NCBI GenBank assembly: GCA_944324055.1
Contig: CALUUV010000007.1
Span: forward strand, 1-35,734
From: Candidatus Gastranaerophilales bacterium
GTDB taxonomy: Bacteria > Cyanobacteriota > Vampirovibrionia > Gastranaerophilales > Gastranaerophilaceae
Reading direction: 5' to 3'
Length of the DNA: 35,734 bases
Under the pieces are notes generated by a model. That model was not told the origin of the DNA and ran no database searches. It saw nothing but the letters and a program-made list of their open reading frames with translations. This document shows positions 14,618-35,294 of this stretch, piece after piece; position 1 is the stretch's first letter; each line of letters starts with the position of its first letter. The translations under genes were made by a program, and so were the position numbers.

Positions 14618-16357
14618 TTATGCTTGTAATAATTTATCAGCTAGAGGAGATTCAACTTTTCCGTTCAATGTTTTTGAAACACGTTTAATATTCTCAGCCA
14701 TAACATCCATTTGATTTGTCCAAATAAAGTTATCTAAAACATATTTCTCTCCTTTAGCAAAATCACCGTCAACTTGAATTCTTATTATCTCTTCAAGCAT
14801 TTTCTTTGCAGTAGGTATCATTTTATCAATATTAACAGTTAGAACACCCTTCATATCAATAGTAAATGCACCTTCTTTTAAGAAATAATAATTTTGCATA
14901 ACTGAACGAACTCTATGAGCTTGAGATAATGTTGGTTTTGATTTCAACATATTATCAGCAGCATAAGTCACAATAATTTGGTCACGTTCTTCTTTTGTAT
15001 ACATACCATTTTCAACAAGAACATCAAGCATTGCAAGAGAAGTCATATCTGCTTTATTCTCTTCAATAATTGACTTATATTTACCCAATGCTTCAGTTCC
15101 AGAATTAGGTCCAAGAGAATGAGCATTTTCATGGCCTATTGTAAACCAGTGATCTGCTTCATCATTATAATATTTGTGTTGTTCTTTGTTTAATATTGCA
15201 TCAAGTCTTTCTTGCATTTTTTTCTTAGCATCTTCACTTGTTATTAGTCTAATTTGGCGGTGATATACATTTCTTCGACCTCCACCTATTGAAATTGATA
15301 ATTTATCATCATTTGGCAAGTTTTCTGCTAATGTAATACCAGCCCTAAACGCACCAACATCACCTGCTACCATTACTAAATCAACATCAACCATTGTTTG
15401 TTTTGATTCTTTATCAGCAGATATATTTTGAACATATTCATCTTTGAATGGCATATTTTTAGCCATAACAGGAAGAAATTCTTTCACTCTTAAAATAGCA
15501 TCGGTTCCTTTTTTGTTAACAATACCTACTCTGCCACCTAAAAAGTCTTTTGCGACAGGAGTAATATTATTTTCATCCAACATTGCTTTTAATTCTTCAT
15601 TTTCAATAACTGTTTCAGTCATCTCATCAGAATAGTTTTCTCTGGTTATTGTAAATTCTAATGGTGTATCTTGAAGAGTTGCCCATTTTTTATCAGCATA
15701 AGCATCTAACATTGGATCAGCTTGTCTTAATGCTTTAGCTTGAAGTTTTAGATATTCATTGAAATCTGAATTAGTAGAAACTTCGCTTGCTTTTTCTATA
15801 TAATCGGCCATTAATGAAAAATCATCTTTAAACTTATCGATATAATCAGTTGCCTTTAATTCATTACCACATCTTTCTACAACTGAACGTTGATTTAATA
15901 TAGTTTTAACTTCATCAACTTTACCTTCATTTAACATTGATTTTAATATATTATGAAATTCTTCAACTGATAAATTTTCAGGATAAACACCTTTTCCAGG
16001 CATTTCATGTACATCTTTTGCTAATTCAATAATATTTGATTCTCTATCAATTGCACAAAGTCCTTTTTGCGCATCATAAAGAATCTTGGTTAATTCTGCT
16101 TGTTTATTGCCCTTAGATATTTCTTCATTTAAAAACTCTTCAAATGGTAAATTATGGCAACTATCTAATTGCTTATTAATTCTTTCTAAAATATCACTTG
16201 CTTTTACAAGATATTTTAATGCTTCTTTATCGCCATCAGCTAAAGATACAAATTCTTCTGCATCAACATCTAACATTTTCTTAGTAGTTAAATAATCTTT
16301 GTGAGTTCGTTTTTCTAACTCTTCCATTGAAAGATTTAATTCATATTGTTTTGTCAT
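14618..16357 (-). CDS. M49-like (dipeptidyl-peptidase III-type) zinc metallopeptidase
   Basis: I choose ATG 16357 (MTKQYEL), because AAAGG sits nine bases upstream. The ATG three codons earlier overlaps that site. The 579-residue protein carries a zinc motif H-E-N-A-H at about residues 409-413 (context TIGHENAHSLGPN). About 20 residues later comes EENKADMTSL, supplying the third ligand glutamate. This pairing of HExxH + LGP with EE.KAD resembles the M49-like group related to dipeptidyl peptidase III, in which classical members have HExxxH. The N-terminal ~200 residues are helical. There is no signal peptide, so it is likely cytoplasmic or non-classically exported. The substrate is unknown. 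Confidence 0.65.
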   Translation of the reverse strand: MTKQYELNLSMEELEKRTHKDYLTTKKMLDVDAEEFVSLADGDKEALKYLVKASDILERINKQLDSCHNLPFEEFLNEEISKGNKQAELTKILYDAQKGLCAIDRESNIIELAKDVHEMPGKGVYPENLSVEEFHNILKSMLNEGKVDEVKTILNQRSVVERCGNELKATDYIDKFKDDFSLMADYIEKASEVSTNSDFNEYLKLQAKALRQADPMLDAYADKKWATLQDTPLEFTITRENYSDEMTETVIENEELKAMLDENNITPVAKDFLGGRVGIVNKKGTDAILRVKEFLPVMAKNMPFKDEYVQNISADKESKQTMVDVDLVMVAGDVGAFRAGITLAENLPNDDKLSISIGGGRRNVYHRQIRLITSEDAKKKMQERLDAILNKEQHKYYNDEADHWFTIGHENAHSLGPNSGTEALGKYKSIIEENKADMTSLAMLDVLVENGMYTKEERDQIIVTYAADNMLKSKPTLSQAHRVRSVMQNYYFLKEGAFTIDMKGVLTVNIDKMIPTAKKMLEEIIRIQVDGDFAKGEKYVLDNFIWTNQMDVMAENIKRVSKTLNGKVESPLADKLLQA

Positions 16358-16436
16358 ATAAAACATCCTTTCACTATTATTCCATACTAATATATCATAT
16401 AACCAGTATTAAAAATAAACTACAACTATAATAACC

Positions 16437-16465
16437 TTGTGTAACTTGAATTATTATGATATAAT
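16437..16465 (+). promoter_or_regulatory. sigma-70-type promoter of the diguanylate cyclase gene
   Basis: A TTGTGT hexamer (16437-16442), a 17-base spacer and a perfect TATAAT (16460-16465) precede the ATG at 16488 by 22 bases. This leaves room for a short leader with AGAGGG as ribosome site. Spacing and hexamers fit a housekeeping promoter. Confidence 0.65.
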
Positions 16466-30837: not shown

Positions 30838-31527
30838 TTAAGCTAAATAATTTTGAGCAATTATATTATTTTGTAATTGTTGATCTTTATATCTCATTTC
30901 ATTAACTAATGTACGTTCATAATCAATACCAGAAGTTAATTCTCTATCAACAAGATTAGTATTTTCATCTGCTTGACGAAATTCTTCTTGAGCAAATTCA
31001 TAATTTGTTAAATCAACTTTAGTCTGCTTACCATATACAAACTCTTGATTTGATACATAACTTGTTAATCTTTCTCTATCAGTAAGATTTGTATCAAGTT
31101 TTACGTTGCCTAGAGTTCCTGTTGTTGATAAATTTTTTCCTGCTAAAGTATATTTATCTAACAATTTCTTTGAAGCATTCCATATATCACCTTTAGCTAG
31201 TTTGTCCCAACCTTTTTTAGCTCTATTTGTTAAAGCTTGAACATATTCACTATGTTTTGGTTGAACATAATCAGCATGAACAGTATTAAACATTGCTTGG
31301 AGATTAGATTTTTCAGCCCTAATTTTTTGATATTGAGCCTCAAGTTCTGCCTTTTTCATTTCTTTATTATTGCCAGATATAGAATCTGTCAATAGCTGAT
31401 CTCTTGTAGCATTAGTTTGGGCTGAACGACGAGCTTCTAGTTTTTGTTTTTCTTCATCTGACAATAACGTAGTATCTACTTGATTCGAACTAGTTATTGA
31501 TGATACTTTAGTTTCTTCGCCAGCCAT
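30838..31527 (-). CDS. hypothetical helical protein, 229 aa, palindrome-controlled
   Basis: I do not recognise this protein. It is hydrophilic and nearly all helical. The N-terminus is serine/threonine-rich (EETKVSSITSSNQVDTTLLS), followed by a coiled-coil-like segment (EMKKAELEAQYQKIRAEKSNLQAMFN). Asn/Gln/Glu-rich helices come later (YEFAQEEFRQADENTNLVDRE, NEMRYKDQQLQNNIIAQNYLA). There is no signal peptide or membrane segment. The chemistry resembles rod-like structural or exported proteins, but that is a guess. TGAGG lies eight bases before ATG 31527, and the palindromic element shared with the gene at 7848 lies 26 bases upstream. Confidence 0.7.
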   Translation of the reverse strand: MAGEETKVSSITSSNQVDTTLLSDEEKQKLEARRSAQTNATRDQLLTDSISGNNKEMKKAELEAQYQKIRAEKSNLQAMFNTVHADYVQPKHSEYVQALTNRAKKGWDKLAKGDIWNASKKLLDKYTLAGKNLSTTGTLGNVKLDTNLTDRERLTSYVSNQEFVYGKQTKVDLTNYEFAQEEFRQADENTNLVDRELTSGIDYERTLVNEMRYKDQQLQNNIIAQNYLA

Positions 31528-31605: not shown

Positions 31606-32658
31606 TTAAGAATTGTTAAAACAGTTATCGTTAATTATTTCAACTTTTTTATTATAATCAGGGGTTATTTTTTGAGGTTTTGATTTTGAAATAGCATCTA
31701 AAAATACCTTATCAGAAAAATTCACATCTAACCTTGCTGGAACTATTAAACCTGATTTTGTCATTTTTTCTATATTAGTTTTTGAGGATAAAAATTCTAC
31801 AAATTTTTGAGCGGATTCTTTATGCTTAGAAGATTTTGATATTGCCCAGCCTGAAGCATCACAAGGTACGATTCCAGGGAAAGTCATTACTCCCCAATCA
31901 AACTTTGCATCAGTTGTATATTTAGGTACAAGCCATCGGCCTGATAAATGCATCGCAATTTTACCTTCTAAAAACATTTGACCAAGAGTTTTTGAACCAA
32001 CATTAGATTTTGAAGGTGCTACGTGATATTTATTTACAAGATTTTTATAAAACATCATGCCTGCATTTATATTATCGATATCACCACCTAAAGTTATTAT
32101 ATAAGGCATTGCATAATATACGTCTTCTTCATAACTTATACCAAATGTATTTTTATCAGTTAGTTTTTGAGCTGTTAACAATAAATCATTTACCCCCCAG
32201 TTAGGATTAGGGTAAGAGATATTTTGTTTATCAAAAATAGCTTTGTTATAGTAGATTACAAGATTAGACACATCTCGTGGTACAGCTAATAGTTTATTAT
32301 TATATGATAAAGCCTCTATTGATTGATTATAATATTTTGAGGTATCAATATTAAAAGGCTCTAAATAATTTGCATAAACAGGGAGATTAAGATTATTTAT
32401 AAAAATAACATCTGGAGCAAGGTTTGAAGCAAAAAGAAGATGTATTTTTTGAAAATAATTTTGAGGGATATGAAGTAATTCTATTTTAATTTTTGGATTA
32501 TTTAATTCAAAATCTTTTATAATCGGGGTCAGTATAGCCATTTCAGAAGCAGATCCCCAAGTTGAGAATTTAATCACTTCAACATCAGATTGTTTTTGGG
32601 TACAACCTGATAAAAATAGACAAATCAATACAAAAAATAGAACTAATCTTTTCATCAT
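31606..32658 (-). CDS. extracellular solute-binding lipoprotein (ABC sugar type)
   Basis: The 350-residue protein has a lipoprotein signal: a basic start, a hydrophobic core and the lipobox LSGC with C19. The mature part matches family 1 solute-binding proteins. It has VIKFSTWGSASEM, IIKDFELNNPKIKIELLHIP, the LFASNLAPDVIFINN phrase, the AVPRDVSNLVIYYNK hinge segment and GKIAMHLSGRW with FPGIVP. Such proteins deliver sugars or oligosaccharides to ABC importers. No permease or ATPase gene is in the window. It is somewhat shorter than the usual ~400 residues at the C-terminus. Its ATG overlaps the stop of the large repeat protein (ATGA), so the two are co-translated. Confidence 0.88.
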   Translation of the reverse strand: MMKRLVLFFVLICLFLSGCTQKQSDVEVIKFSTWGSASEMAILTPIIKDFELNNPKIKIELLHIPQNYFQKIHLLFASNLAPDVIFINNLNLPVYANYLEPFNIDTSKYYNQSIEALSYNNKLLAVPRDVSNLVIYYNKAIFDKQNISYPNPNWGVNDLLLTAQKLTDKNTFGISYEEDVYYAMPYIITLGGDIDNINAGMMFYKNLVNKYHVAPSKSNVGSKTLGQMFLEGKIAMHLSGRWLVPKYTTDAKFDWGVMTFPGIVPCDASGWAISKSSKHKESAQKFVEFLSSKTNIEKMTKSGLIVPARLDVNFSDKVFLDAISKSKPQKITPDYNKKVEIINDNCFNNS

Positions 32659-35294
32659 AAATCAATTAAATGGCTCATTTTTTTATCAGTTACTTCAATA
32701 ACCATTTTATATAGCCCAACTCTTACAATATATCTATAATTTGATTCCGACAATTGTTCTGCAGGTTTTATATAAATATTATTATTCACACATTCATCAA
32801 ATGTTTTTAATACAAAGATTTCATCTTTTATATACCCAATCAATGATGAGAAATTCTCAAAGTTTACTAGATAGAACCCACTTATATTATTTATAGGGGT
32901 TTGAGCAAGAACTGTTAAGCCATCAACAGTTGTTTCATAATCCCCTCTAAGTTCATCAAAAACAGAATCATCATTGTTTTCATCTGATGTTTCAACTTCA
33001 TCATCAAATACTAAGTTATTATTACGAAGTTCTTCAAAAATACTATCATCATCATCTGAAATTTGTTCAAAATCATTTATGTAGCCATCTGGTTCATAAT
33101 CATCAACTTCTTCTTGAACATCTTCTAAAATTTCTTCTTGTTGTTCTTCATCTAATTCTTCTTGAACCTCTTCTAATGTTTCGTCTTGAGGTTCTTCGTC
33201 TATCTCATCTTGAACATCTTCTGAGATTTCGTCTTGTTGTTCTTCATCAACCTCATCTTGAACGTCTTCTATGATTTCTTCTTGTTGTTCTTCATCTAAT
33301 TCTTCTTGAACCTCTTCTAATGTTTCGTCTTGAGGTTCTTCGTCAACTTCTTCTTGAACATCTTCTATGATTTCATCCTGAGGTTCTTCGTCTATCTCAT
33401 CTTGAACATCTTCTGAGATTTCTTCTTGAGGTTCTTCATCTACCTCATCTTGAACGTCTTCTGAGATTTCTTCTTGAGGTTCTTCGTCTAATTCTTCATG
33501 AACGTCTTCTAAGATTTCTTCTTGAGGTTCTTCATCTACCTCATCTTGAACGTCTTCTGAGATTTCTTCTTGAGGTTCTTCGCCAAATTCTTCATGAACG
33601 TCTTCTAAGATTTCTTCTTGAGGTTCTTCATCTAATTCTTCTTGAACATCTTCTAAGATTTCTTCTTGAGGTTCTTCATCTACCTCATCTTGAACGTCTT
33701 CTAAGATTTCTTCTTGTGGTTCTTCGTCTAATTCTTTTTGAACGTCTTCTAATGTTTCATCTTGAGGTTCTTCGTCGTCTTTTTGAATATTTTGAACAAC
33801 TTCCTCTGCAGAAATATTTGTATCAACAAAATCATCAATATCCTGAACTAAAGGTTTATCATCAATAGTTTCAGGGATATTTTCATCACCCATCATTTCT
33901 GCAAATGATGAATTAGTTTCTTCTAAAATTTCTTTTTCTTCATCTATTTCACTAACTGAATCTTCTACAACTTCATTCTCTTCTTCATTTTGTTCTTGAA
34001 CATATGTCACAACATTATTTTCAGATTCAGAATTAACTGAAGCTTGCTCCATCTGTTCTTTAATCTTTCTATTCATAAGAAGAATAAATAATATTACAAG
34101 TAAAGGGAAACCAATAGCAGATAAAACTAATAATAATTTAATTAAATTATTTCTTAAATTCATTAGCTCAGCTAGAGCAGACAACTTGTCTTGAATTTTC
34201 TTTATATGATTAGTTTTAGGCTTCACAACTTGTTTTGGTTCAGGTTTAACCTGTTCAACAGGAGTTTCAACAACCGGTTTTACCTGAGGTTTTGCTTGCT
34301 CAACTTGAGGTTTTACAACCGGTTTTACCTGTGGTTTTGCTTGTTGAACTTGAGGTTTTACAACTGGTTTTACCGGAGGTTTTGCTTGTTGAACTTGAGG
34401 TTTTACAACTGGTTTTACCGGAGGTTTTGCTTGTTCAACTTGAGGTTTCACAACTGGTTTTACCGGAGGTTTTGCTTGTTCAACTTGTGGTTTTACAACT
34501 GGTTTCACCTGAGGTTTTGCTTGTTCAACTTGAGGTTTTACAACTGGTTTCACCTGAGGTTTTGCTTGTTCAACTTGTGGTTTTACAACTTGTTTTACCT
34601 GTGGTTTTGCCTGTTCAACTTGTGGTTTTACAACCGGTTTTACCTGAGGTTTTGCCTGTTCAACTTGTGGTTTTACAACTTGTTTTACCTGTGGTTTTGC
34701 TTGTTCAACTTGAGGTTTTACAACCGGTTTTACCTGAGGTTTTGCCTGTTCAACTTGTGGTTTTACAACCGGTTTTACCTGAGGTTTTGCTTGTTGAACT
34801 TGAGGTTTCACAACTGGTTTCACCTGAGGTTTTGCCTGTTGAGATCCAGGTTGTTTTACTTGCGGTTTAATATCTTTTTTAATAACTATAGGTGCATTTT
34901 GAACATTAACACCTGCTTTTGCTGATATATTAATAGGCTTTTGAGATACGATTGTAATCTTAGTATAACCTTTACAACCTCCTGACACATATGGTTGTGT
35001 TTTTATTGATATCCCTGAAATTTCATTCGAAACATTATCAATTACAGGCTTTCCACATATTGAATTTTGAGTCTCAGGCAATAAAATAACATAAGTGTTA
35101 TTTGCTTTCTCATTAACATAAACAGGACTATTATAAGGTTTTGATGTCACAACATGAACATTAACCCCACCAGAAGAATCCTTATTAAGCTTTAAATTTA
35201 CAACACTATTTTTAAACTCTTCACCCACAACCGGATTAAGAGTTACTAATGCTGCACATAATATCAATGCTTTTTTTGCAAATCTACACTTCAT
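32655..35294 (-). CDS. bipolar repeat membrane protein with AMIN-like domain
   Basis: The 879-residue protein has a signal peptide (residues 1-24) and an AMIN-like beta domain (about 28-125; NLKLNKDSSGGVNVHVV, NNTYVILLPETQ). Then come about fourteen 15-residue basic Pro/Lys/Val/Gln repeats (153-359, QAKPQVKPVVKPQVE) and one membrane segment (about 384-407). A second region of fourteen 16-residue acidic repeats (about 507-730, DEEPQEEILEDVQDEV) leads to a C-terminal domain of ~90 residues (GFYLVNFENFSSLIGYIKDE). The predicted topology puts the AMIN domain and basic repeats in the periplasm and the acidic repeats in the cytoplasm. AMIN domains bind peptidoglycan or envelope parts, so an envelope-spanning scaffold, loosely like TonB or FimV, is reasonable. 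It is translationally coupled to the solute-binding lipoprotein. Confidence 0.8.
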   Translation of the reverse strand: MKCRFAKKALILCAALVTLNPVVGEEFKNSVVNLKLNKDSSGGVNVHVVTSKPYNSPVYVNEKANNTYVILLPETQNSICGKPVIDNVSNEISGISIKTQPYVSGGCKGYTKITIVSQKPINISAKAGVNVQNAPIVIKKDIKPQVKQPGSQQAKPQVKPVVKPQVQQAKPQVKPVVKPQVEQAKPQVKPVVKPQVEQAKPQVKQVVKPQVEQAKPQVKPVVKPQVEQAKPQVKQVVKPQVEQAKPQVKPVVKPQVEQAKPQVKPVVKPQVEQAKPPVKPVVKPQVEQAKPPVKPVVKPQVQQAKPPVKPVVKPQVQQAKPQVKPVVKPQVEQAKPQVKPVVETPVEQVKPEPKQVVKPKTNHIKKIQDKLSALAELMNLRNNLIKLLLVLSAIGFPLLVILFILLMNRKIKEQMEQASVNSESENNVVTYVQEQNEEENEVVEDSVSEIDEEKEILEETNSSFAEMMGDENIPETIDDKPLVQDIDDFVDTNISAEEVVQNIQKDDEEPQDETLEDVQKELDEEPQEEILEDVQDEVDEEPQEEILEDVQEELDEEPQEEILEDVHEEFGEEPQEEISEDVQDEVDEEPQEEILEDVHEELDEEPQEEISEDVQDEVDEEPQEEISEDVQDEIDEEPQDEIIEDVQEEVDEEPQDETLEEVQEELDEEQQEEIIEDVQDEVDEEQQDEISEDVQDEIDEEPQDETLEEVQEELDEEQQEEILEDVQEEVDDYEPDGYINDFEQISDDDDSIFEELRNNNLVFDDEVETSDENNDDSVFDELRGDYETTVDGLTVLAQTPINNISGFYLVNFENFSSLIGYIKDEIFVLKTFDECVNNNIYIKPAEQLSESNYRYIVRVGLYKMVIEVTDKKMSHLIDL
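33105..33776 (-). repeat. fourteen 48-bp tandem repeats (acidic 16-residue units)
   Basis: Each unit encodes 16 residues of the form D-E-E-P-Q-x-E-I-x-E-D-V-Q-x-E-[VLI], all in register, with few substitutions (for example GEEP or HEEF). Such close DNA identity implies recent expansion or gene conversion, and copy number probably varies between strains. Confidence 0.93.
34218..34838 (-). repeat. about fourteen 45-bp tandem repeats (basic 15-residue units)
   Basis: Each unit encodes QAKPxVKxVVKPQV plus E or Q. Thirteen units are near identical and the last, nearest the membrane segment, is degenerate. The long plus-strand open frames across this region are antisense by-products of the repeat. 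Confidence 0.93.

Follow-up and report, generated by a model that had tools for sequence, protein, structure and literature searches.

The stretch of DNA analysed here, hereafter the window, is one entire contig of 35,734 nucleotides (CALUUV010000007.1) from a metagenome bin of Candidatus Gastranaerophilales bacterium (2.07 Mb in 191 contigs, 89.7% complete). Near its end lies a gene for a membrane protein, here called the array protein, in which two charged tandem-repeat arrays flank a single membrane helix. The folded ends of this protein resemble an AMIN domain on one side and a duplicated FliO domain on the other. Since the array gene nearly always has a gene for a sugar-type solute-binding protein as its neighbour, the evidence points to a secretion part that has been reused rather than to a simple tether. 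The features of the locus are as follows; residues (aa) are those of the array protein.

32655..35294, minus strand: the whole array gene, encoding a bitopic envelope protein of 879 aa; open reading frame (ORF) intact, ATG start
35229..35294, minus strand: N-terminal export signal or first helix, aa 1-22, predicted from the sequence
34917..35222, minus strand: AMIN-like periplasmic beta domain, aa 25-126, from alignments, a structural model, a match to AmiC and Pfam AMIN matches in relatives
34251..34835, minus strand: basic array of 13 units of 15 aa, aa 154-348, predicted periplasmic, from repeat finding
34080..34136, minus strand: single transmembrane helix, aa 387-405, from hydropathy
33102..33773, minus strand: acidic array of 14 units of 16 aa, aa 508-731, predicted cytoplasmic, from repeat finding
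32658..32939, minus strand: C-terminal FliO-like double beta domain, aa 786-879, from a structural model, weak Pfam FliO matches and profile comparisons
31606..32658, minus strand: solute-binding lipoprotein (SBP_bac_1/SBP_bac_8) of 350 aa, overlapping the array gene by 4 bp, from Pfam and gene order

The anatomy of the array protein was obtained directly by computation. Hydropathy gives one strong hydrophobic segment, with a mean of 2.99 over aa 387-405, which separates an outer linker (aa 129-386; 23% V, 19% K, 18% Q, 18% P; net charge +36) from an inner linker (aa 406-784; 31% E, 16% D; net charge -168). Tandem Repeats Finder describes the basic array as a 45-bp unit repeated 13.1 times (91% matches, score 926, window 34252-34840) and the acidic array as a 48-bp unit repeated 14.0 times (84% matches, score 879, window 33100-33773), the latter alternatively fitting a 144-bp higher-order unit (score 1004). 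Besides these, the program lists just two short arrays in the window, of about two copies each. A first-pass annotation made from the sequence alone had outlined this plan, and much of the outline stands: one membrane helix lies between the arrays, the acidic array has its 14 units of 16 residues, and the units of the two arrays are unrelated. The basic 15-residue array is likewise present, with 13 full units and not the about 14 first counted, although both arrays exceed short-read length and unit counts in a metagenome bin may be inexact. Separately assembled close relatives likewise hold arrays at both places. Two plus-strand ORFs, 34191-34925 and 34292-34870, span the basic array in antisense; given the 45-bp period, they are the expected shadows of the repeats and not genes.

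The basic array is predicted to lie outside and the acidic array inside the membrane, because the N-terminus is of an export type, the single later helix is followed by NRKIK, the N-terminal domain has an AMIN-like fold and the adjoining gene encodes a lipoprotein. The array protein has the FliO-type combination of a single membrane helix and an eight-stranded all-beta C-terminal domain (C-domain), the latter presumably on the cytoplasmic side.

The C-domain had been noticed in the first pass as conserved, with the suggestion that its structure be predicted, and it does appear folded. An AlphaFold2 model built from 79 sequences (the window and named loci of relatives) has a mean pLDDT of 93.0 and shows eight strands in two sets of four, the halves being aa 786-836 and 837-879. 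Pfam FliO (PF04347) is the most frequent weak match, found in 37 of the 79 members at E <= 1 (best 1.1e-3), and other families reach at most nine; in a set of 21 members, 15 gave weak FliO matches, with a best of 1.2e-4. Each half compared with FliO beats 100/100 column-shuffled controls, and so does one half compared with the other (100/100 shuffled controls). Both halves also beat 100/100 shuffles against only the fliP-linked FliO of the window's own genome, which was picked by its position beside fliP and not by similarity, and which passes the Pfam FliO cut-off (24.7 versus 22 bits). We regard the FliO-like identity of the C-domain as well supported. The domain is FliO-like and duplicated, and is not filed as FliO because it stays below the Pfam cut-off and lacks the operon setting: at the 21 loci whose neighbours were inspected, the array gene is neither beside fliP nor in a flagellar or type III secretion system operon. 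Both fliP genes of the window's genome are on other contigs than the array gene.

For the outer domain, the AlphaFold2 model from 77 sequences (again the window and named loci) has a mean pLDDT of 91.2 and a pTM of 0.84. Its top structural match among the Foldseek candidates is E. coli AmiC (4bin) residues 33-128, with a Z of 6.8 (3.2 Å over 92 residues) that stands 1.1 above the next rows, unrelated receptors at Z 5.7, a modest likeness in that a Z below 8 may reflect merely a common arrangement. This part of AmiC we take to be its AMIN domain. Consistent with this, Pfam AMIN (PF11741) is the commonest weak match of the domain, in 16 of 77 members (best 2.1e-4), any other family reaching at most four. 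The AMIN-like identity, which the first-pass annotation had already suggested, is likely, and the domain may bind the peptidoglycan of the wall.

The array gene is paired with a second gene. In 20 of 21 loci the array gene is directly followed by a gene for a sugar-type solute-binding protein, at a spacing of -11 to +30 bp, and these neighbouring binding proteins are 45-70% identical to that of the window. All 20 partner proteins match both SBP_bac_1 and SBP_bac_8 at E <= 0.001; the window's own reaches 105 bits, where the cut-offs are 26 and 27. Thirteen of the 20 contain a simple lipobox pattern, a count that overlooks at least one likely site (L074), and the others seem to retain an N-terminal helix. 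Beyond the binding protein, no conserved neighbour was found at the 21 loci; among the scattered neighbours are what we take to be Era, BamA, an OmpH-type protein and others. Sugar-type ATP-binding cassette (ABC) permease genes (L205-L209; G050, G000) are scattered singly, apart from each other and from both binding-protein genes.

The array-protein family is nearly universal in the window's taxonomic family. Among its 117 genomes, the N-domain query matches in 87 and a C-terminal 133-aa query in 110, usually on a single open frame of about 500-940 aa. Of the seven genomes missed by the C-terminal query, G004 has the N-domain, G008, G046 and G029 match the C-domain profile, and G025 is marginal in that profile search (8.3e-4); G023 and G067, which are 85% and 78% complete, have no match to the N- or C-terminal query. 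The C-domain matches in G008, G046 and G032 come from searches alone. In a phylum-wide sample, a C-domain match occurs in 131 of 292 genomes, the matching rows all belonging to the window's family, apart from one genome from a different family of the same order. Five listed genomes of a further family in the same class have no C-domain match and have FliP in all five.

Relatives were found via the neighbouring gene. The homologue search proposed in the first pass was borne out in 76 of 80 named loci, which combine the N-domain, helix and C-domain on one ORF; the remaining four (L115, L119, L120, L172) run off a contig end. In four short proteins of 267-318 aa (L076-L079) the AMIN-like domain and the long linkers are absent; two hydrophobic segments and the C-domain remain, as does the same binding-protein gene downstream. 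The AMIN-like domain is usual but dispensable in the family, and the minimal conserved unit is the binding protein together with a membrane helix and the double FliO-like domain.

The arrays behave differently from this unit. Called at a score >= 80 and >= 2.5 copies over 77 full-length genes including the window's, arrays in both linkers occur in four genes (the window, L116, L117 and L118), exclusively in the window's clade. Their outer and inner units are 15 aa x 13.1 and 16 aa x 14.0 in the window, 15 aa x 3.8 and 15 aa x 10.8 in L116, 18 aa x 3.6 and 16 aa x 8.5 in L117, and 26 aa x 5.3 and 23 aa x 5.7 in L118. The binding proteins encoded next to L116 and L117 share 94% and 93% identity with that of the window, and the C-domain of L116 is 91% identical, yet the array units differ in sequence. 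K, Q and V or A, together with P, are abundant in the outer array of all four members, and the inner array is acidic in each, although the units are unrelated; array units are therefore quickly replaced while composition and membrane side are kept, a turnover established by computation. Within the window, about two thirds of the unit differences fall on third codon positions (232/350 and 414/630), which suggests constraint on the protein. L116 also carries, at 16324-16452 and close to a contig end, a 66-bp unit in two perfect copies.

Across the orthologues, the outer linker is net positive in 75 of 76, mostly array-free, and the inner linker has a net charge of -10 or below in 15/76, of -9 to +9 in 51/76 and of +10 or above in 10/76. 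Outer and inner linkers measure 93-344 and 148-501 residues across these orthologues and do not co-vary in length (Spearman 0.13, P 0.26), where helix boundaries in relatives come from a simple hydropathy window and single boundaries may be off. The first-pass annotation had read the arrays as a bipolar, envelope-spanning tether whose length varies by repeat number, an idea that it held to fail if homologues lacked one of the arrays. Array length does vary widely among close relatives, but a bipolar tether as the core function does not agree with both arrays in just 4/77 genes, an acidic inner linker in just 15/76, the short forms L076-L079 and linkers that vary independently in length. Since some homologues that have neither array and no AMIN domain keep the helix, the FliO-like domain and the binding-protein neighbour, the arrays are fast-evolving disordered spacers, local or genus-level elaborations and not the core function. 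As a description, the tether fits the spacers and not the protein as a whole.

As our best guess, to which we give a probability of roughly 0.4, the array protein is a FliO-like, AMIN-anchored bitopic adaptor, no longer tied to the export-gate operon but to a sugar-type solute-binding protein. Its AMIN-like domain would bind peptidoglycan, the flexible Lys/Pro/Gln-rich spacer would reach from the inner membrane to the wall, and one helix would cross the membrane. Inside, a disordered spacer, strongly acidic in the window's genus, would keep the duplicated FliO-like domain off the membrane, and this double domain might dock onto a client in the cytoplasm or the membrane. The binding protein, which a lipid or an N-terminal helix would fix in that same membrane, would be the likely periplasmic partner that the adaptor couples to that client. 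Spacers in the window's genus would have been rebuilt repeatedly by tandem duplication, under selection that may act on composition and not on sequence.

Several results weigh against this adaptor. The window's C-domain scores 14.1 bits, below the Pfam FliO cut-off of 22. A comparison of the C-domain profile with seven FliO sequences gave 87% probability (E 4e-6), versus 0.7% and 0.1% for two unrelated control profiles, but that score is inflated, six of the seven having first been found via their likeness to the C-domain itself; the Pfam counts of 37/79 and the comparison with the own-genome FliO are free of this selection bias. The probability against that single own-genome FliO was just 16%. 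Searched with Foldseek against solved structures, neither the C-domain nor the N-domain has a match at E <= 0.001, and structurally the C-domain comes closest to pairs of beta-propeller blades (Z up to 9.6) in a comparison that included no FliO structure; the model resembles such a blade pair in our own interpretation. The window's own N-domain has no Pfam AMIN match, and its likeness to AmiC is modest, as noted. At one of the 21 loci (L075), the gene of the putative periplasmic partner, the binding protein, is not adjacent. A more specific version appears doubtful to us: a duplicated FliO chaperone domain, joined to a wall-binding AMIN domain through long disordered spacers, may have been recruited together with the binding protein as a transmembrane receptor or hub that is now a core gene of the non-photosynthetic cyanobacteria of the gut, its two-blade C-domain perhaps oligomerising into a propeller. 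RSL, a two-blade lectin, assembles into a propeller in this way.

We weighed the adaptor against other explanations. The protein could be a working FliO whose gene merely lies at another site, a chaperone for the export gate of the second, non-flagellar-type fliOPQR operon or of the flagellum. FliP occurs in 116/117 family genomes versus flagellin in 49/117, so many flagellin-negative genomes retain the export gate and the client would nearly always be there; flagellar-type fliP genes at L105-L110 and L112 have no directly adjoining FliO-like gene, and an AMIN-FliO stabilises FlhB in Campylobacter according to passages of PMC12403147. Set against this, a FliO that passes the cut-off already stands beside fliP in the window's genome (L113), the C-domain query matches 67/68 flagellin-negative and 43/49 flagellin-positive genomes and is thus independent of flagella, the five sister-family genomes of the same class have FliP yet no C-domain match, and the conserved partner is a sugar-type binding protein. 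We therefore rejected a true flagellar FliO as the main role, on its presence independent of flagellin and the separate FliO in the genome, and consider the working-FliO reading in general improbable. Unlikely too, if slightly less so, is a wall-bound polar or septal landmark like HubP or FimV, whose acidic repeats and C-domain recruit clients. The common plan speaks for it (a wall-binding-type domain outside, a helix, acidic repeats inside and a small C-domain), as does the variation of HubP acidic repeats between close species in the portion of PMC12918733 consulted; yet Pfam and NCBIfam give no LysM and no FimV C-terminal match, the inner linker is acidic (<= -10) in just 15/76 orthologues, and that portion of PMC12918733 mentions no binding-protein gene partner for HubP/FimV. 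Membership of the HubP/FimV family was rejected on the missing domain matches, and the comparison is kept as a working analogy.

The least probable of the alternatives, in our judgement, is a nutrient uptake or sensing unit. Here the binding protein would feed sugar-type ABC permeases encoded at scattered sites, and the membrane protein would sense the loaded binding protein or set its location. In each of the five genomes inspected there are exactly two SBP_bac_8 proteins, the partner being one, and six BPD_transp_1 permeases, which leaves room for the partner to serve a scattered transporter as well; two permeases (L205/L209; L206/L208) are singletons with no adjoining binding protein, and Pfam confirms L208 and L209. 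However, gene pairing by itself does not prove an uptake role, and no known signalling domain lies inside. A last alternative is compatible with all the others and deserves somewhat more credence, although we still doubt it: the arrays may be functionless, a neutral growth of disordered linkers by replication slippage in one genus. Their restriction to the window's clade (4/77), the wholesale change of units and copy number between relatives with 93-94% identical binding proteins and the lack of co-variation in linker length all fit neutrality. What argues otherwise is that the four full-length clade members keep a K/Q/V-or-A/P-rich outside and an acidic inside despite unrelated units, that outer linkers are net positive in 75/76 orthologues, most of them array-free, and that about two thirds of unit differences are at third codon positions.

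Other genes of the window and of the family are recorded here. A second export-gate operon of the window's genome (L113 7346-11268, G000:C23) encodes a FliMN_C protein, FliO, FliP, FliQ, a T2SS-T3SS_pil_N protein and FliR. The long-FliP loci L105-L110 and L112 hold flagellar-type fliPQR. In three genomes a FliO-like gene of 167-190 aa (L093, L096, L097) is not beside fliP; its neighbours are presumably of the NeuB and KdsC types. Flagellin N-terminal matches lie on frames of 1228-1418 aa in G000:C40, C43, C50 and C62, possible giant flagellins, and the window's genome has 12 flagellin matches in all. Flagella in these bacteria are described in a part of PMC3787301.

In the window itself, a 229-aa protein at 30838-31527 (minus strand) has no Pfam or NCBIfam match and a weak PHROGs match (0.003) to a family of unknown function; the PHROGs scan otherwise returned nothing useful. 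Pfam Fibrinogen_BP (PF08017) scores above its cut-off on the array protein (57.6 versus 50 bits, aa 493-801, essentially the acidic array alone), and a match to pneumococcal PspC (NCBIfam) is confined to low-complexity charged or proline-rich repeats. Both identities were rejected as composition artefacts, the former having no homology beyond the repeats. With the Fibrinogen_BP cut-off passed, automated annotation could mislabel the array gene.

With a duplicated FliO-like domain in a core gene that is locked to a binding protein and present regardless of flagellin, the array protein would be a plain instance of FliO being reused in nature. It would also provide a testable function for a gene spread across Gastranaerophilales, a common gut lineage. 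The arrays also offer a clean natural experiment, in which close relatives have built unrelated repeats anew and yet follow the same rule of charge on each side of the membrane.

Known systems share parts of this design. TonB/TolA-type linkers span the periplasm and are Lys/Pro-rich, like the outer spacer of the array protein; the latter has no TonB or TolA C-terminal domain match, and its folded outer domain is N-terminal and AMIN-like. The first-pass annotation had found no named family with this plan, but two related plans are published. HubP/FimV polar organisers consist of LysM, a transmembrane helix, acidic repeats and a C-terminal domain, and HubP acidic repeats vary in number, length and composition between close species, as the available portion of PMC12918733 describes. 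The likeness lies in a wall-binding-type domain outside, one helix, an acidic, fast-changing cytoplasmic region (repetitive in HubP) and a small C-terminal domain. The array protein differs in being AMIN-like and not LysM outside, in having a FliO-like beta domain and not the FimV TPR domain, in an acidity and repeats restricted to some clades, and in its binding-protein partner gene.

Closest are the proteins with AMIN, a transmembrane helix and a cytoplasmic FliO domain that Andrianova et al. described in 2025 in Campylobacterota and other phyla (PMC12403147). FliO is poorly conserved. According to the parts of that paper available, it varies widely, from 80 to over 500 aa, it may carry AMIN or LysM domains, it occurs outside flagellar operons and even in non-flagellated species, and the stabilisation of FlhB in Campylobacter depends on AMIN. 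The array protein shares an outer N-terminal domain that is probably of AMIN type, the one helix and the small all-beta cytoplasmic FliO-type domain. It differs in that its FliO-like domain is duplicated and below the Pfam FliO cut-off, its linkers are long, the whole protein reaches up to 935 aa among the orthologues read, its gene pairs with a solute-binding protein and not fliP, and a separate FliO exists in the same genome. The main text of PMC12403147 has no mention of Melainabacteria, Vampirovibrio, Gastranaerophil-, cyanobact-, duplicat-, tandem or solute, and a literature search that left most subscription journals outside its reach found no report of the array-protein family. Compared with these systems, the duplication of the FliO-like domain, its place upstream of a sugar-type binding-protein gene instead of by fliP, and its near-universality regardless of flagellin look new.

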